Assembly: GCF_047663525.1 (NCBI RefSeq)
Contig: NC_092600.1
Location: 1-64,000, forward strand
Length of the DNA: 64,000 bases
Direction of reading: 5' to 3'
Source of the DNA: Anas platyrhynchos
Lineage: Eukaryota; Chordata; Aves; Anseriformes; Anatidae
This document shows, piece by piece, positions 4,237 to 64,000 of this stretch. A model generated the notes under the pieces. It saw only the letters and a program-made list of their open reading frames with translations. It made no database searches and had not been told where the DNA came from. A program made the position numbers and the translations under genes. The first letter of the stretch is position 1. Every line of letters starts with the position of its first letter.

Positions 4237-5126
4237 ATGGACCCCCCTGGTGCGCCCCGCAAATGCGTCCCCCCGGCAACAGCACCCCGCAAACTTGGTT
4301 CCCCCCTCACTTTGGTTCCCCCCGGTGCGCCCCACAAATGTGTCCCCCCGGAAACAAAACCCCGCACACTTGGTTCCCGTGTCCTTTTGGTTCCCCCCCC
4401 CCCCGGTGCGCCCCACAAATGTGTCCCCCCGGAAACAAAACCCCGCACACTTGGTTCCCCCCTCCTTTTGGTTCCCCCCCCCCCCCCGGTGCGCCCCACA
4501 AATGTGTCCCCCCGGAAACAGCACCCCGCACACTTGGTTCCCCCCTCATTTTGGTTCCCCCCCCTTCCACCCCCCCGTTGGGGTCCCCCCTAGCCCCATG
4601 GTCCCCCCCCCCGGTGCGCCCCGCAAATGCTTCCCCCCGGCAATCGCACCCCGCAAACTTGGTTCCCCCCCACCCTTGGGGTCCCCCCAAGCCCCATGGA
4701 CCCCCGCCCCCTTGGTGCCCCCCCCCCAATTTGTCTCTCCCCCCGTCCTACCCGTGCCCGCAGCAGCCGCTCACACTCTGCCAGCGCCTTCCGCACCCGA
4801 TGCTGCATCTCGGCCAGGTGGAGGCAAGCGCTGGAGGGGGGGGAATAAATTGGGGGGGGTCAATTTGGGGGGGGTCTGGGGGCATTTTGGGGGTTGGGGG
4901 CGCATTTAGGGGGCGGAGGGGACTGGTTCTCACCTGTAGGACTCGGCGTCGAGCCCCCCCGGGGGCAGCTGCAGGGCCAGGATGCCTGCGGGGGTGCGGG
5001 GGGGGGCATGTCAGCACCCCCCAGACCGAAACCCCAAAACCGCTGCCGTTGACCCCAAAACCGCCGCCGTTGACCCCAAGGTGGCCGCTAGTGACGCCGG
5101 TAGGGCCACCGGGCGCCCCGCGGGCC
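4237..5126. repeat. GC-rich CpG island in subtelomeric repeat, copy 2
   Basis: Near-identical to the island at 1,147, but with five rather than four copies of the 75-85 bp GGTGCGCCCC unit (near 4248, 4323, 4405, 4487 and 4611). The right-hand exon-bearing part is unchanged apart from point differences. Confidence 0.8.
4752..4985 (-). pseudogene. Two-exon fragment of an unidentified gene, copy 2
   Basis: Same exon pair as at 1577-1810: exon A 4985-4934 and exon B 4830-4752 on the minus strand, with identical splice sites and an open 43-codon reading frame. The identity of the exons and intron shows that the island was duplicated as a unit. Confidence 0.55.
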
Positions 5127-6601: not shown

Positions 6602-7476
6602 ATGGACCCCCCTGGTGCGCCCCGCAAATGCGTCCCCCCGGCAACAGCACCCCGCAAACTTGGTTCCCCCCTCATTTTGGTTCCCCCCGGTGCGCCCCAC
6701 AAATGTGTCCCCCCGGAAACAAAACCCCGCACACTTGGTTCCCGTGTCCTTTTGGTTCCCCCCCCCCCCCCGGTGCGCCCCACAAATGTGTCCCCCCGGA
6801 AACAAAACCCCGCACACTTGTTTCCCCCCTCCTTTTGGTTCCCCCCCCCCCCCCCGGTGCGCCCCACAAATGTGTCCCCCCGGAAACAGCACCCCGCACA
6901 CTTGGTTCCCCCCTCATTTTGGTTCCCCCCCCTTCCACCCCCCCGTTGGGGTCCCCCCTAGCCCCATGGTCCCCCCCCCCGGTGCGCCCCGCAAATGCTT
7001 CCCCCCGGCAATCGCACCCCGCAAACTTGGTTCCCCCCCACCCTTGGGGTCCCCCCAAGCCCCATGGACCCCCGCCCCCTTGGTGCCCCCCCCCCAATTT
7101 GTCTCTCCCCCCGTCCTACCCGTGCCCGCAGCAGCCGCTCACACTCTGCCAGCGCCTTCTGCACCCGATGCTGCATCTCGGCCAGGTGGAGGCAAGCGCT
7201 GGAGGGGGGGGAATAAATTGGGGGGGGTCAATTTGGGGGGGGTCTGGGGGCGCATTTAGGGGGCGGAGGGGACTGGTTCTCACCTGTAGGACTCGGCGTC
7301 GAGCCCCCCCGGGGGCAGCTGCAGGGCCAGGATGCCTGCGGGGGTGCGGGGGGGGGCATGTCAGCACCCCCCAGACCGAAACCCCAAAACCGCTGCCGTT
7401 GACCCCAAAACCGCCGCCGTTGACCCCAAGGTGGCCGCTAGTGACGCCGGTAGGGCCACCGGGCGCCCCGCGGGCC
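6602..7476. repeat. GC-rich CpG island in subtelomeric repeat, copy 3
   Basis: Third copy, with five GGTGCGCCCC units (near 6613, 6688, 6770, 6856 and 6980) as in copy 2. It lacks 18 bp in the G-rich intron between the exon-like segments. Shared variants with copy 2 (for example GCTTCC for GCGTCC in the last unit) make copies 2 and 3 the closest pair. Confidence 0.8.
7120..7335 (-). pseudogene. Two-exon fragment of an unidentified gene, copy 3
   Basis: Exon A is 7335-7284 and exon B 7198-7120 on the minus strand. Splice sites and frame are retained. One base change turns a CGG codon into CAG (Arg to Gln) in exon B, and the intron is 18 bp shorter than in copies 1 and 2. Confidence 0.55.
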
Positions 7477-17545: not shown

Positions 17546-17967
17546 TGGAAAAAGGGAGGGGCAAAGCACAAGGAAGTAGAAAGAAAGCAGGAGCAGCAGC
17601 AGCAGCTGTTTTTTATATTTTTCTTTGGTTTTTTTTTTTTAAGATCTGCTTTACTGGAAAAACATGCAGAGAGCAGACAGGAGACCTGTGCTGTTTCTAG
17701 AAGCAACAATCCCCATGCTTTTGCTGCAGCTTTTAACATTGAAAGGACAACACGACCAGGCCAGTAACTGGAACTTTTTGAAATGGAATTACGTCAAACA
17801 GGTTCATCATCACTTGCAAAAACAGAGAACGAACATTCACTAGCATGCCAGCCCTGATACCCACCTCCTGCACAACGCTGACTACTACTGATGCAATATA
17901 CCATTGTGCAATACCTCTCTGTTCCCAGCTCCTTTACCTCACCTGCTCAGTAGCTCCACCTGAGAAA

Positions 17968-18822
17968 TGTGCCCGGGCGGCGCCGCGCTTAAATGTGCCC
18001 GGGCGGCGCCGCGCTTAAATGTGCCCGGGCGGCGCCGCGCTTAAATGTGCCCGGGCGGCGCCGCGCTTAAATGTGCCCGGGCGGCGCCGCGCTTAAATGT
18101 GCCCGGGCGGCGCCGCGCTTAAATGTGCCCGGGCGGCGCCGCGCTTAAATGTGCCCGGGCGGCGCCGCGCTTAAATGTGCCCGGGCGGCGCCGCGCTTAA
18201 ATGTGCCCGGGCGGCGCCGCGCTTAAATGTGCCCGGGCGGCGCCGCGCTTAAATGTGCCCGGGCGGCGCCGCGCTTAAATGTGCCCGGGCGGCGCCGCGC
18301 TTAAATGTGCCCGGGCGGCGCCGCGCTTAAATGTGCCCGGGCGGCGCCGCGCTTAAATGTGCCCGGGCGGCGCCGCGCTTAAATGTGCCCGGGCGGCGCC
18401 GCGCTTAAATGTGCCCGGGCGGCGCCGCGCTTAAATGTGCCCGGGCGGCGCCGCGCTTAAATGTGCCCGGGCGGCGCCGCGCTTAAATGTGCCCGGGCGG
18501 CGCCGCGCTTAAATGTGCCCGGGCGGCGCCGCGCTTAAATGTGCCCGGGCGGCGCCGCGCTTAAATGTGCCCGGGCGGCGCCGCGCTTAAATGTGCCCGG
18601 GCGGCGCCGCGCTTAAATGTGCCCGGGCGGCGCCGCGCTTAAATGTGCCCGGGCGGCGCCGCGCTTAAATGTGCCCGGGCGGCGCCGCGCTTAAATGTGC
18701 CCGGGCGGCGCCGCGCTTAAATGTGCCCGGGCGGCGCCGCGCTTAAATGTGCCCGGGCGGCGCCGCGCTTAAATGTGCCCGGGCGGCGCCGCGCTTAAAT
18801 GTGCCCGGGCGGCGCCGCGCTA
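17968..18822. repeat. 26-bp CpG satellite, 33 units
   Basis: Perfect tandem copies of a 26-bp unit containing GTGCCCGGGCGGCGCCGCGC followed by TTAAAT. Spacing between GGGCGG landmarks is exactly 26 bp from 17,975 to 18,807. Each unit holds five CpGs and the nested palindromes CCCGGG and GGCGCC, so the array has about 165 CpGs in 855 bp and strong hairpin potential. The near-absence of variants points to recent expansion. Confidence 0.95.
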
Positions 18823-18823
18823 A

Positions 18824-19475
18824 AAAACAGTGAGCCAGAAACCTCTATTAAACATCCCTCTATTAAGTGAATTCCAAGCACTTAAAAATTCTAGAAATCC
18901 ATAGACTCCAGCCTGCCTAGAGAACCCTGCAACTGACTGAAGGAAACACAAAGCACTTACCCCAAGGAGCAGCCCAGGCAGAAGGAGCTCTCTGATAGAA
19001 TGCCTGGGGCTCATATACCATTTGGCCCCGCCCAGCACCCAAACCCAATCACCTGGAAAAAGGGAGGGGCAAAGCACAAGGAAGTAGAAAGAAAGCAGGA
19101 GCAGCAGCAGCAGCTGTTTTTTATATTTTTCTTTGGTTTTTTTTTTTTAAGATCTGCTTTACTGGAAAAACATGCAGAGAGCAGACAGGAGACCTGTGCT
19201 GTTTCTAGAAGCAACAATCCCCATGCTTTTGCTGCAGCTTTTAACATTGAAAGGACAACACGACCAGGCCAGTAACTGGAACTTTTTGAAATGGAATTAC
19301 GTCAAACAGGTTCATCATCACTTGCAAAAACAGAGAACGAACATTCACTAGCATGCCAGCCCTGATACCCACCTCCTGCACAACGCTGACTACTACTGAT
19401 GCAATATACCATTGTGCAATACCTCTCTGTTCCCAGCTCCTTTACCTCACCTGCTCAGTAGCTCCACCTGAGAAA
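18824..19475. repeat. 1,508-bp tandem duplication, second copy
   Basis: Copy of 17,316-17,967, including the same CCAAT/GC-box/TATA/donor series on the minus strand (TATA-like element at 19,017-19,010). It is followed by its own short 26-bp array. Confidence 0.8.
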
Positions 19476-19690
19476 TGTGCCCGGGCGGCGCCGCGCTTAA
19501 ATGTGCCCGGGCGGCGCCGCGCTTAAATGTGCCCGGGCGGCGCCGCGCTTAAATGTGCCCGGGCGGCGCCGCGCTTAAATGTGCCCGGGCGGCGCCGCGC
19601 TTAAATGTGCCCGGGCGGCGCCGCGCTTAAATGTGCCCGGGCGGCGCCGCGCTTAAATGTGCCCGGGCGGCGCCGCGCTTAAATGTGCCC
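19476..19690. repeat. 26-bp CpG satellite, 8 units
   Basis: Same unit as at 17,968, with landmarks from 19,483 to 19,665 at 26-bp spacing. It then breaks off into AAATGTGCCCAAACAGAC and the sequence of the next block. Confidence 0.93.
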
Positions 19691-26348: not shown

Positions 26349-26425
26349 GCCCTAACCCCAACCCTCACCCTAAACTTTAACCCTATCCCCAGCCCTAGTC
26401 CCTAACCCCAACCCTAGTTCCCAAG
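26349..26425. repeat. Interstitial degenerate telomere tract
   Basis: About 75 bp of CCCTAACCCCAACCCTCACC-type text in the same orientation as the terminal telomere, ending directly at the 62-bp array. It is short and decayed, as expected for a buried former chromosome-end sequence. Confidence 0.75.
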
Positions 26426-26915
26426 AACTGCATTTCCCGGTATGCTCCGGGCACTCAACATGGCCTCCCGGAAGTTCGGAGTCCCAGAACTACACTTCCC
26501 GGCATGCTCTGGGCACCCAACATGGCCTCCCGGAAGTTCGGAGTCCCAGAACTACATTTCCCGGTATGCTCCGGGCACCCAACATGGCCTCCCGGAAGTT
26601 CGGAGTCCCAGAACTACATTTCCCGGTATGCTCCGGGCACCCAACATGGCCTCCCGGAAGTTCGGAGTCCCAGGACTACATTTCCCGGTATGCTCCGGGC
26701 TCCCAACATGGCCTCCCGGAAGTTCGGAGTCCCAGAACTACATTTCCCGGCATGCTCCGGGCACCCAACATGGCCTCCCGGAAGTTCAGAGTCCCAGAAC
26801 TACATTTCCCGGCATGCTCTGAGCACCCAACATGGCATCCCGGAAGTTCAGAGTCCCAGAACTTCATTTCCCGGCATGCTCTGGGCACCCAACATGGCCT
26901 CCCTGAATCCTGGTG
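26424..26915. repeat. 62-bp minisatellite with ZNF143-, YY1- and ETS-like motifs, 8 units
   Basis: The ATGCTC landmark occurs at 26442, 26504, 26566, 26628, 26690, 26752, 26814 and 26876: exactly 62-bp period. Each unit carries ACTACATTTCCCGGCATGC (resembles the ZNF143/THAP11 element ACTACAATTCCCAGAATGC), CAACATGGC (YY1-like core) and CCCGGAAGTTC (ETS/GABPA-like). Units differ by a few substitutions (GCTCTG/GCTCCG, TTCGGA/TTCAGA). Open frames across the array come only from the period and are not genes. Confidence 0.9.
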
Positions 26916-27910: not shown

Positions 27911-28630
27911 GCAACGCGCATGCGCGGCGCCCGGCCGCCAGCAGTACCTGATTGTGTCCAGCAGGTGGCGGCAAAGGGCGCCCGCGGGCTCCACCGCGCA
28001 TGCGCGGATCCCAGCTGCCTGCAGTACTCGTTCTCCACCAGGAGGTGGGGGCAGAGGGCGCCCGCGGGCGCCACCGCGCATGCGCGCATCCCAGCTGCCT
28101 GCAGTACCCGTTTGCCTCCAGAAGGTGGCGGGAGAGGGCACCCGCGGGCGCCACCGCGCATGCGCGGCCCCCGGGCGCCTGCAGTACCCGATTGCTTCCA
28201 GCAGGTGGCGGCAGAGGGCGCCCGGGGGCGCCACCGTGTATGCGCTGCGCCCTGCAGCCTGCAGTACTCGTTTATCACCAGCAGATGGAGGAAGAGGGCG
28301 CCTGCGGGTGCCAGCGCGCATGCGCGGCCCCCGGGCGCCTGCAGTACTCGATCTCCACCAGAAGGTGGCGGCAGAGGGCGCCCGCGGGCGCAACCGCGCA
28401 TGCGCGTAGCTCGGCAGACTACAGTATTCCTTCTCCACCAGCAGGTGGCGGCAGAGGGTGCCCGCTGGCGCCTTCGCGCATACGCGGAGCTCGGCTGCCT
28501 GCAGTACCCGATTGCCTCCAGAAGGTGGCGGCAGAGGGTGCCAGCGGTCGCCAGCGCGCATGCGCGCCGCCTGGCCGCCTGCAGAAGTCCTTTCCCACCA
28601 GCAGGTGGCGACCGAAGGCGCCAGCGGGAG
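27911..28630 (+). repeat. 80-bp minisatellite of bipartite CTCF motifs with NRF1 palindromes, 9 units
   Basis: The TGCGCG landmark falls at 27921, 28001, 28081, 28161, 28241, 28321, 28401, 28481 (as TACGCG) and 28561: exactly 80-bp period. Unit order: GCGCATGCGC (NRF1 palindrome), CCTGCAGTACC (CTCF upstream motif), 9-bp spacer, CCAGCAGGTGGCGGC (CTCF core, fitting CCASYAGRKGGCRSY), then AGAGGGCGCCCGCGGGCGCC. Perfect cores are at 27958, 28198 and 28438. One-mismatch cores are at 28358, 28518 and 28598; weaker ones at 28038, 28118 and 28278. All point the same way (+). NRF1 is degraded at 28241 and 28481. Long open frames here are a by-product of GC content. Confidence 0.93.
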
Positions 28631-30529
28631 GGCTTGTCGGGCGGATTACAGCTCGCCTACTGTGCCATTCAGAGCTTATGGCTGTATTTTTTCCAACGTA
28701 TTTGCTACCCACACCACGCACGGCAGCTTGTCTTACAAATAATTCTGTCAGTATTCTCTTTAACACGGGCATGAAGCATCCACTGCTCTTCTATGCAAGC
28801 AACCTTCCTTCTGTGCTCCATTTGGGATGCAGGACTACATGCACTGAGATTTGTTCCACTCATTTTTCATCTTTTCATTGTCACAGTCTGCAAGGACGTC
28901 TTGCTTTCTTCTCACAGACTGATGTGATGGATAGGGATGAATCGCCCTATGTATTCCAAGGTATTACTGTGGGTTTTTTTTAAGTATGTTCAGCTGTACA
29001 GATGAATACATTACCGCTAAGAAAAGAGTTCAGAAATGTTTATAACAAGTTCTTTCCATGTGTAACTTTTTCACTTCACATGGTAATAAAGATATGCTGC
29101 TTTTGGATTTAATTTCCTTCTTGAATCTCACTGGTGTAATTCCAATGGTAAAACCACCTCTTCCAGAAAGACAAGGCCACTGCTTCACAAGAGACGGAAA
29201 AGATGTCTCACAGGCTGGCTAGTACTACAAATATTAATAGGAACAGAAGTTCAGGCCATCAACTTAAATCTGTTTCCCTGTCTCTTCTGCTAGCTGGTCA
29301 AGTGGAATCCTCAAGATATTCGCAGTACTTTGTAAAGAGCTTGTTAACATGAGAACAACTTCAACCTGTCTTTTAAAAGAATGCTGTTAAAGGAGCAGGA
29401 GAACGTTTTTAAATGAGAACAACTGAAAATAAAATTATCTGAAGAGCCACTTACTATGGGCATATTACTGTTTAAAATGAAAAAAATAATTACGTGCAGG
29501 TGCTTCAGCCTTCGTTGCATTTTCTGTGATTCACAACATTACCTTCGAACAAAAGAGTAAGAGGAACGGAGGAGAGGATATTAACTTGGGTAACCATGGA
29601 TTTGGTAAGCTGGAACTTGGTGCCTTTAATACTTTCACCTTGGAGCAAAAATGTACACCCTGCACAGGCTGAGCTGACTGATGAGTACATGCTACTGGGA
29701 GGTAAGTACAAACACATTCTGCAGCTATTACCAGAAGTGGAATTTCAGGGTATGCAGACTGGTTTCACAAAAAATTAGCGGTCTGCTGGTAACAGGAAAT
29801 TCAATGCTGCCCGCTACAGACTCCTCAGGTTAGCACTTATTAAAAATTAATTAAAGGGTTTATTTTATATATATACACCTATGTTCCAAAAAATTTATAC
29901 AGTTAAAGTATCAAATTAGTGATCCAGTAACAATACTGTTCAAAAATAATCTCTTTTATATGAACATTAAAATGCACGTTTTTAAAAGCGTTTCCTTTTA
30001 GTGCTTCCAAAGCACAGCGTGTGCCAAGGCCACCTGAAGAATCTCCAACCTCCTCACAAGATGAAAGAGAACTGAAGTCATGGACCTGGGAAGCCTCAGG
30101 TGCACTTTCATAATGTCTGCAGACAAAACAGAAGAGAGTCTGAGATAAATTGTTTAGTGACCACCAGGTGGTAACAGTCACAGGGCTGTCTTTAGCTTTC
30201 ATTAACACAATAGCAGTTTCTTTACTCTCAATCTACACTGAATCTCAAGTTTAAAGGCATGGCTAGCAGTTCTCGGGAAGAAGACCCTTGTATCTGTGCT
30301 GGCAACATGTAATATTACCAATGCAGCTGTTTCTGGGAGGTTTTCTTTTTTTTTTTTTTTTTTGGGGGGGTGGGGGGGGGAACACATGGGATCTCTCCAC
30401 AATGCAGTGTGTGCATTTGACAGTGCCCCATTTTAGTAAATTCTCATCACCTGCAGGAGGGGCAACAATGGTTATTTTCTTCAGCCTGTTGAGCAAATAG
30501 CACCCTCCACAGGAAAATAGCCACACTTT
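28631..30529. other. Intergenic, no gene seen
   Basis: Ordinary AT-richer sequence following the array, with a T tract plus G run at 30,346-30,379. Short frames exist on both strands, but none has splice context or a composition I can support as coding. Confidence 0.5.
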
Positions 30530-52103: not shown

Positions 52104-53961
<1,858 letters not shown>

Positions 53962-61949: not shown

Positions 61950-64000
61950 GAAAGCTGTGTTCATGGACAGGTACTGCTGTGATATGAACATGGGGCTGTG
62001 CAGTCATGCAGGTGCTGTGCATCATATTGCAATGGACATTTTGTTTGATGTAGTGCTTGTAGACAGGAAGGACACTGTTTGTTTGGTCTTTCTCTTAAAT
62101 CAACATCAGGTACTAACACTGAACCACAGCACTATCAAAACCACTGGTTCATGGCCAGTATTAAAACTATCAAAGGATTATTTATTTATTTATTTATTTA
62201 TTTTAAAGGCATAAGATAACGTACCCTATAGGTGAAGGGTCCTGTTGTGCAGATGAAGGGCCTTGTTGTGCCAAGGGGAAACAAGTAATTTATCTGCTGG
62301 AGCTGGATTTCCATGTCTACCTTGGGATTATGACTGATTTTAGTTGGTATGAGCAAGCAGAAATCAGAAATATTCAGAAACATAACTGGAGTTTCAAAAA
62401 GCAGTAATAATTTCCTGGTAATAAAGAAAATAGCTTGTAAAATTTATGAGGAGGCAAAGTTTAAACACACACACACAAAAGAATGAAAATGAAAAGTTAT
62501 TTCAAAAATGTTTACCAGATAGAACAAAGAAATTAATAATACAAAAGGACTACTGTAGCTAAAAGCTCATACCACTTAAGAAATGATATGAAATCACTGT
62601 TAAGAATGATAATAAAAAGAGAAAAGAAATAGATTTTTGTTAACACATAGTGACATATTTGTCAGAAGAAAAAATACAGCTAAGTAAATAAATTCTGAGC
62701 CTGTAGGAGCAGATTATCAAGACAATTTTAAATGTACCAGTGTAAAAGATAGCCCGATCCTGGTATAGCTCTAACAGTATCACAGAATCACAGAATTTCT
62801 AGGTTGGAAGAGACCTCAAGATCATCAAGTCCAACCTCTGACCTAACACTAACCAGTTCTCCACTAAACCATATCGCTAAGTTCAACATCTAAACATGTT
62901 TTAAAGACCTCCAGGGATGGTGACTCCACCACTTCCCTGGGCAGCCTATTCCAATGCCTCACGACCCTTTCGGTAAAGAAGTTCTTCCTAAGATCCAACC
63001 TAAAACTCCCCTGGCGCAACATTAGCCCATTCCCCCTCGTCCTGTCACCAGGCACGTGGGAGAATAGACCAACCCCCACCTCACTACAGCCTCCTTTAAG
63101 GTATCTGTAGAGAGCGATAAGGCCGCCCCTGAGCCTCCTTTTCTCCAGGCTGAACAAGCCCAGGTCCCTCAGCCGCTCCTCGTAGGACTTGTTCTCCAGG
63201 CCCCTCACCAGCTTCGTCGCCCTTCTCTGGACCCGCTCAAGCACCTCGATGTCCTTCTTGTAGCGAGGGGCCCAAAACAAAAAACAGTAGCTGAAGTTAA
63301 TAAGTTATTAATACAATGAATATGTTTGCTGTAAATTTATAAAGAAGCATGTTGAAGTACTTGTTTCTCAGAGCATGATGCAGAACTTTCTAGGCTACTA
63401 GAAAGAAGGAAAGTTGATATGAAACAGGTATTATGAATACTTTTTTTGCTTAAAAAAAAAAAAAAAAAAGTCACAGGCACCTTGCAAGCAAGACTCTTAT
63501 AACAAATGGCTAATGCATCTGCTGCTATGACACATTTTAGAATATAAGAGAAATCCCAGCCAGGATATACAACAATGTCATTCAGTATTAGCAAAGGATG
63601 AGCAAGATGACCCAAATAGTACATCATAAAACCTCAGCAAGGTAATGCAAAAGACCATTTCATCTAGTAAAAAATGAAATGCTGGAAATACAATGAATAC
63701 CAGTCAGTAGGATTTAGTTGAAATTGAGTTTTGATAAACAATTTATTTTTTTTTTATAATGAGACTTCAAAGTACAGTTAACAATAATACAATATTAATG
63801 CAAGCAACGTGTACATACATAAGTCCATAGGCCCTGATGGGAGAGCTGAGGGAACTGGTAGATGTCATTGTGAAGCCACTCTTGATAATCTTTGCTCGAT
63901 CATGATACAGGCTGAGAGAGCCGGAACTGTTAAGCCTGGACAAGAGAAGGCTCAGGGGATCTCATAAATGTATGTAAACACATGATTGGAGGTTGCAGTA
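61950..64000 (-). repeat. Large inverted repeat, right arm, interrupted, runs off the window
   Basis: The arm is split by 1,550 bp (62,305-63,854) absent from the left arm; this insertion includes a young CR1. The last base of the window still matches the left arm (near 59,019-59,027), so the palindrome continues beyond 64,000. A (TTTA)n run is at 62,179-62,203. Confidence 0.8.
62775..63290 (-). mobile_element. CR1 LINE, young 5'-truncated copy
   Basis: The minus strand carries an open 138-codon frame of the CR1 reverse transcriptase C-terminus ([20 protein letters not shown].., ..[20 protein letters not shown]..). It is followed by the 3' UTR with GACTTGATGATCTTGAGGTC and the terminal TTCTGTGATTCTGTGATA repeat at about 62,778. 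The intact frame and close fit to CR1 consensus mark it as the youngest LINE here. It is 5' truncated. Confidence 0.93.

Follow-up and report, generated by a model that had tools for sequence, protein, structure and literature searches.

Tandem repeats with a unit of 80-81 bp, nearly every one of which contains an extended CTCF site, occur at chromosome ends of Anas platyrhynchos and share one polarity relative to the telomere. Polar tandem repeats of CTCF sites are known from other loci. The sequence, number, position, and polarity of these sites, along with the relative conservation of their motif columns, are firm observations. We infer from them, tentatively and at somewhat less than an even chance, that this subtelomeric satellite family acts as a polar CTCF/cohesin barrier and insulator at chromosome ends. 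The family was traced from a single array in the window, the whole 64,000-nucleotide stretch of DNA that was analyzed, which represents the left contig end of C14 (C14:1-64000) in a 1.26-Gb genome of 42 contigs.

The array of the window (Table 1) was detected by Tandem Repeats Finder as 8.9 copies with a period of 80 and 79% matches, in agreement with the original prediction of a nine-copy, 80-bp unit that combines a bipartite CTCF site with an NRF1 palindrome. On the + strand, the unit proceeds from an NRF1-like palindrome through a 14-bp linker to the upstream CTCF motif, a 9-bp spacer, the CTCF core, and a GC-rich tail. The core consensus, CCASYAGRKGGCRSY, is exact in three of the nine units (1, 4, and 7), carries one mismatch in three (6, 8, and 9), and carries two mismatches in the other three (2, 3, and 5). 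The palindrome GCGCATGCGC is intact in seven units and missing from units 5 and 8, and the per-unit count matches the three exact cores, three one-mismatch cores, and seven palindromes that had been claimed. The TGCAGTA upstream motif is exact in six of the nine units, and the spacing from TGCAGTACN to CCAG is 9 bp, so that the spacer had also been read correctly.

Table 1. Coordinates of the CTCF array, its individual sites, and neighboring repeats in the window.
Feature	Coordinates	Strand	Details
Telomeric (CCCTAA)n run, contig end	1..994	-	Tandem Repeats Finder; TTAGGG on - strand
62-bp tandem array, 7.9 copies, telomere side of CTCF array	26419..26907	+	Tandem Repeats Finder
80-bp tandem array, 8.9 units	27915..28628	+	NRF1 palindrome, CTCF upstream motif, 9-bp spacer, CTCF core
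CTCF 19-mer, unit 1	27955..27973	+	Matrix score 22.2
CTCF 19-mer, unit 2, weak	28035..28053	+	10.8 in phase; 12.5 three bases earlier, at 28032
CTCF 19-mer, unit 3	28115..28133	+	Matrix score 15.9
CTCF 19-mer, unit 4	28195..28213	+	Matrix score 20.4
CTCF 19-mer, unit 5	28275..28293	+	Matrix score 16.7; NRF1 palindrome altered
CTCF 19-mer, unit 6	28355..28373	+	Matrix score 19.1
CTCF 19-mer, unit 7	28435..28453	+	Matrix score 21.1
CTCF 19-mer, unit 8	28515..28533	+	Matrix score 18.0; NRF1 palindrome altered
CTCF 19-mer, unit 9	28595..28613	+	Matrix score 18.0
Lone CTCF-like site, 1.5 kb inward of array, same orientation	30158..30176	+	Matrix score 18.1

Sites were scored with a CTCF 19-mer matrix (MA0139.1 counts). 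Eight of the nine units reach a threshold of 15, and the eight hits all lie on the + strand of the array with none on the − strand, which upholds the uniform orientation that had been described; 500 dinucleotide shuffles of the array gave a mean of 0.028 hits at this threshold and a maximum of one. Beyond the array, the + strand match at 30158 is the sole site scoring above 14 in the 64-kb window. The prediction had further called for reverse-oriented partners deeper in the chromosome under the convergent-loop rule; no strong partner of this kind was found within the 64-kb window, where the − strand contains no CTCF site above 14 (best score, 12.4). Two units contain an additional CTCF-like core of lower score (10.7; 28205-28223 and 28365-28383), positioned 10 bp beyond the main core on its downstream side, and the columns that it occupies are also well conserved across 45 units of the 80-bp type.

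The left edge of the window was taken to be a chromosome end because its first 994 bases consist mostly of (CCCTAA)n. Between this edge and the CTCF array lies the 62-bp array, in which six places fit ACTACANNTCCCNGNATGC, presumably a ZNF143 (SBS)-like site, and seven contain CCGGAAG, which we take to be ETS-like; a similar array stands ahead of the CTCF array on C12 and on C15. The CTCF array had been placed between a subtelomere and the first genes, and this description proved partly right. Homology with C12 passes the array, piecewise, and reaches at least 31.4 kb, so that the subtelomeric block shared by C14 has not ended at 28.6 kb, and the idea that the array borders unique sequence was rejected for C14. 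On C15, homology halts at the array edge and is followed by what we presume to be a CR1-like 3' fragment. An ORF of the window at 62864-63304, likewise presumed to be CR1-like, gave no match to Pfam. The − strand carries an EGR1-like ORF (52104-53516) at a distance of about 52 kb from the chromosome end, which contains the Pfam EGR N-terminal domain and zinc fingers and matches human EGR1 structures. Its first exon is presumed to lie near 54 kb, as read from the ORF list, and had no Pfam match.

The wider distribution of the family was determined with an exact bipartite pattern, TGCAGTANYCNNTTNYCNCCAGVAGGTGGCGG, which spans the upstream motif, spacer, and core and has 4251 matches in the genome (1741 forward and 2510 reverse), compared with 0 forward and 0 reverse for its reversed-letter control. 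Places were listed for the first 100 of these matches, and two rarer patterns with complete lists were therefore used. The first of them yielded 9 forward and 43 reverse hits, and the second, specific to the NRF1-bearing type, yielded 27 forward and 66 reverse; of the 145 hits in these complete lists, 134 lie at contig ends with concordant polarity and 11 lie in an internal tract of C14. Carriers were located on 16 of the 42 contigs by a non-exhaustive search. All left-end carriers (C1, C5, C9, C12, C13, C14, C16, and C35) have the sites on the + strand and all right-end carriers (C4, C6, C8, C10, C11, C15, C21, and C27) have them on the − strand, i.e., the motif is directed away from the telomere at 16 of 16 located terminal places. 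The window array lies about 27 kb from the telomere, the other located places lie 48-371 kb from a contig end, and the complete pattern list places the NRF1-bearing 80-bp type at 12 ends. Viral contigs were considered as a further source of the bipartite pattern and rejected, with 0 matches.

Tandem arrays were read at eight of the 16 ends (C1, C9, C11, C12, C14, C15, C21, and C35), while C4, C5, C6, C8, C10, C13, C16, and C27 are represented by pattern hits and by reads of 100-2600 bases. On C13, three sites follow one another at 80-81 bp, with both subfamilies of the repeat side by side. A 2.5-kb sample around one hit on C10 contained a single CTCF site, and NRF1-type pattern hits on this contig recur every ~4.7 kb; there the site is apparently carried by a longer repeat rather than by an array. 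It follows from this lone site that an array is not present at every located end. In the interior of C14, at about 9.44-9.546 Mb, a − strand tract of the 81-bp type is accompanied by TTAGGG repeats in right-end orientation and is followed by a GCCAAGCCGTGCC-type satellite. This tract may represent a fusion, a pericentromeric block, or an assembly misjoin.

The family comprises two subfamilies. Units of 80 bp with the NRF1 palindrome make up short arrays (8.9 units on C14, 8.9 on C12, 9.0 on C15, and 17.8 on C9), and units of 81 bp without it make up long tracts. In C1:1-200000, 774 + sites score above 14 compared with 1 − site, and the + sites span 98 kb (50.4-148.4 kb), with neighboring sites spaced exactly 81 bp apart in 667 of 773 cases and TGCAGTA correctly placed in 759 of the 774 sites. 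There are 0 occurrences of GCGCATGCGC in C1:1-200000, and the 81-bp consensus reads CGGGCATGAGC at the place of the palindrome. The view of NRF1 as a component of the unit can thus be retained for the 80-bp type, given its presence in seven of nine window units and the sparing of its columns across 45 units, but does not hold for this interval of C1.

Several properties of the 81-bp type are those expected of a passenger satellite, i.e., a repeat begun from a CTCF site and spread by unequal exchange between ends, with no role there, whether or not the motif is bound, and with its polarity simply inherited, which we consider rather unlikely as an account of the family. The 81-bp type is homogenized, its 679 complete units including 102 distinct ones with 98.4% identity to the consensus; units were picked by a motif anchor for these unit and block counts, and identity in the anchor columns is there by construction. 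In the C1 tract, 77 blocks with a median of 6 units alternate with telomere-like and C-rich repeats that have a median length of ~0.7 kb. Where CTCF blocks were read letter by letter (the C1 tract and C13), they break off within the core and pass straight into CCTAACCC telomere repeats, which suggests that the addition or joining of a telomere at this point may have preceded amplification. Modules of the 81-bp type, the C1:50-150 kb tract among others, also contain an exon-like fragment with splice-site-like borders, for which Pfam gave no match and one 22-mer of which has 43 copies in C1:1-200000. Beyond this composition of the amplified modules, a passenger origin is favored by the variation of array content between chromosome ends and by the neighboring 62-bp satellite, the core of which has 745 exact genome matches (357 forward and 388 reverse); among the 100 of these 745 places listed, a like polarity pattern is seen, the satellite being on the + strand close to the left end of C1 and on the − strand both on C2 and close to the right end of C4. 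Uniform polarity alone is no proof of a barrier, because it would also survive the exchange of DNA from one chromosome end to another. What speaks against a passenger is that motif columns are spared while the rest of the unit diverges, an effect that is seen among units of the 80-bp type and, less strongly, from one subfamily to the other.

Between the 80-bp and 81-bp consensus sequences, 10 of 81 columns differ and none of these is among the 27 chosen motif columns (p = 0.026), a set without the upstream motif's ninth base, which is variable; over all 34 columns that extend from the upstream motif through the core, the contrast is 2/34 versus 8/47 (p = 0.18). Within the 80-bp type, a constraint test confined to the window array gave p = 0.011 for CTCF, 0.008 for NRF1, and 0.14 for TGCAGTA. 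Because this single-array test was too weak alone, units of three other ends were added, resulting in a set of 45 units from 4 of the 12 NRF1-type ends, 39 of which score at least 14 for CTCF. Mean column identity in this set is 0.949 for NRF1, 0.921 for the upstream motif, and 0.938 for the core, compared with 0.844 elsewhere. The mean CTCF score is higher than in data permuted by column (p = 0.001) or within sites (p = 0.0008), and among non-CpG columns, those of the core are more conserved than the others (p = 0.0036). All six columns that are free of deviation fall within the 24 columns of the core and upstream motif (~4.5e-4, hypergeometric, post hoc). Substitutions show only a slight preference for tolerated alternative bases (-0.91 versus -1.15). 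In a sham scan of 160 matrix placements, the true place ranks 4 (rho 0.62), the three better ones all lying over the NRF1 block, and the correlation between matrix and conservation was consequently rejected as stand-alone proof.

Comparison of C14, C12, and C15 revealed a 5-7% difference in the flanks, excluding the right flank of C15, which has 3 aligned columns only. The corresponding figures for the array are 25-27% in columns outside the motifs, 13-17% in the 19 CTCF columns, 12-19% in the upstream motif, and 9-12% in NRF1. The array, including its motifs, has therefore diverged more than its flanks, and its motif columns have changed less than its other columns. With flanks and non-motif columns so far apart, the idea that the nine-unit arrays of these three contigs are frozen one-to-one orthologs was rejected.

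The arrays would bear on the question of how cohesin loop extrusion is kept off telomeres. If the subtelomeric arrays serve as a polar barrier, CTCF would be bound with long residence, zinc fingers 3-7 contacting the core and 9-11 the upstream motif, and the arrays would halt cohesin that extrudes from the chromosome interior toward the telomere. Arrest on the interior side is expected because the N-terminal side of CTCF lies downstream of the core, as implied by PMC12885311, and downstream of the core is the chromosome interior at the 16 located ends. The array would also insulate subtelomeric chromatin from inner genes, e.g., the EGR1-like gene, and the NRF1 sites of the 80-bp type may help short arrays to stay open. 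A unit of 80-81 bp would probably leave no room for a nucleosome between two occupied neighbors.

Studies of the extended motif provide a basis for parts of this mechanism. The arrangement TGCAGTACC-8 bp-CCAGCAG served as a CTCF site in vitro, with a spacer of 8 bp compared with 9 bp in the window array (PMC11194110). Two spacings that differ by one base were described for the extended motif, which was found in 2.6-5% of sequences per dataset and linked to CTCF residence time (PMC11472169). The upstream motif is present in about 13% of CTCF sites and tied to insulator activity; in a Sox2 screen from the same work, tandem copies were needed and orientation mattered less, which counts against a barrier (PMC12885311). 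A satellite that carries this minority motif in nearly every unit is unusual. Methylation was reported to matter at position 2 of the 15-bp core and not at position 12 (PMC6600276). As the cores of the window array have a CpG at position 12 only, and none at position 2, methylation would be expected to affect NRF1 more strongly than CTCF.

A more specialized form of the barrier is a dedicated polar cohesin buffer, in which thousands of high-residence sites would stop extrusion before the telomere and would, in addition, constitute a nucleus-wide sink for CTCF. This form is doubtful, and its standing was lowered because arrays were read at half of the 16 ends and C10 carries a lone site. Whichever form applies, ends of differing copy number coexist in one genome, with about 9 units on C14, C12, and C15, about 18 on C9, and 774 sites on C1, and this dose series could make dose and direction readable without engineering. 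The family would also bring the literature on CTCF macrosatellites together with that on CTCF/TERRA control at subtelomeres, and do so outside mammals. Such arrays would tend to be missed in ordinary CTCF maps, since short reads multimap there.

The units of DXZ4 are of kilobase scale. Along with FIRRE and ICCE, DXZ4/Dxz4 belongs to the mammalian, X-linked loci with tandem CTCF sites of common polarity, and for Dxz4, polar CTCF repeats were inferred to block cohesin that arrives from one direction, while inversion of the array swaps the direction of contacts (PMC6985041). The family described here resembles these loci in having a site in nearly every unit (eight of nine in the window, 39 of 45 units of the 80-bp type, and 774 sites on C1) and a common polarity (8 + and 0 − in the window, 774 + and 1 − on C1, and 16 of 16 ends). 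It is distinct from DXZ4 proper, a kb-scale, X-linked macrosatellite, in that the unit is 80-81 bp and is found on 16 contigs, at 16 chromosome ends and outside any context of X inactivation.

The same arrays could instead be promoters of TERRA, with NRF1, CTCF, and ZNF143/ETS-like elements forming a CpG-island promoter for telomere-ward transcription, like the human 61-29-37 repeats. As an explanation of the family we regard this as improbable; the NRF1-bearing arrays may play a TERRA role, helped by the ZNF143/ETS-like 62-bp array next to them. Human TERRA promoters consist of tandem CpG-rich repeats with NRF1 and CTCF (PMC6600276, PMC5727389), both proteins being positive regulators of human TERRA (PMC6600276), and the arrays share with them the position at chromosome ends, the CpG-rich tandem repeats, and the joint occurrence of NRF1 and CTCF. 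The window array is CpG rich (observed/expected ratio of 0.91 versus 0.35 at 28.7-38 kb) and has the 62-bp array with ETS and ZNF143-like sites on its telomere side, although CpG-rich repeats with NRF1 are a property of the 80-bp type only, and NRF1 palindromes are missing from C1:1-200000. In the human repeats, NRF1 sites reside in a separate 29-bp repeat (PMC6600276, PMC5727389), whereas here NRF1 is either in one unit with CTCF or absent. The human 17p family, as worded in PMC5727389, has two CTCF motifs <5 kb from telomere repeats and oriented toward the end. By comparison, the present family has thousands of sites 28-371 kb inside that point away from the telomere, a polarity opposite to that of the 17p pair if PMC5727389 uses the same direction convention. 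About 27 kb of subtelomere separates the window array from the telomere, and none of the located places is within a few kb of the telomere tract, although the 81-bp blocks of C1 abut interstitial telomere repeats. The suggestion of an avian counterpart to human subtelomeric CTCF/TERRA elements is accordingly apt for the shared ingredients and not for distance, orientation, number, or a constant presence of NRF1.

A germline or meiotic element, with CTCF/CTCFL-like binding or pairing of chromosome ends in meiosis in place of somatic folding, is very improbable. In its favor are the subtelomeric position on many chromosomes, the targeting of genomic repeats by CTCFL (PMC5007689), and the restriction of TERRA by meiotic cohesin at spermatocyte telomeres (PMC10172765); against it are a sequence with no pointer to meiosis and a report of almost no CTCF-linked insulation in chicken lampbrush (oocyte) chromosomes (PMC13076225).

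Other repeats share features with the family. The avian satellite PO41 is also tandem and subtelomeric, with a period of 41 bp compared with 80-81 here, and CTCF is mentioned 0 times in the accessible text of that paper (PMC4301066). A GC-rich tandem repeat at human 1q23.3 binds CTCF and is implicated as a boundary, and differs in having a 7.3-kb, tRNA-bearing unit at one locus rather than 80-81 bp at many ends (PMC4041453). Among open-licence titles and the beginnings of abstracts, no description of a CTCF-bearing avian subtelomeric satellite was found, and the accessible text of the chicken complete-genome paper contains 0 occurrences of CTCF (PMC9974502).

Two further repeats were observed in the subtelomeric part of the window. 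A 26-bp GC-rich satellite is present at 17965-18825 (33 copies) and 19473-19690 (8.4 copies) with 99-100% matches, its first block having a CpG observed/expected ratio of 1.45; copies of this satellite sit within an exact 869-bp duplication, and on C27 a similar 26-bp unit adjoins a CTCF unit. Three blocks of 79-84-bp C-rich repeats (CCCGGTGCGCCCCACAAATGTGTCC...; 1152-1389, 4242-4564, and 6683-6932) lie between degenerate telomere tracts, and similar C-rich repeats are found between the CTCF blocks of C1 and C12.
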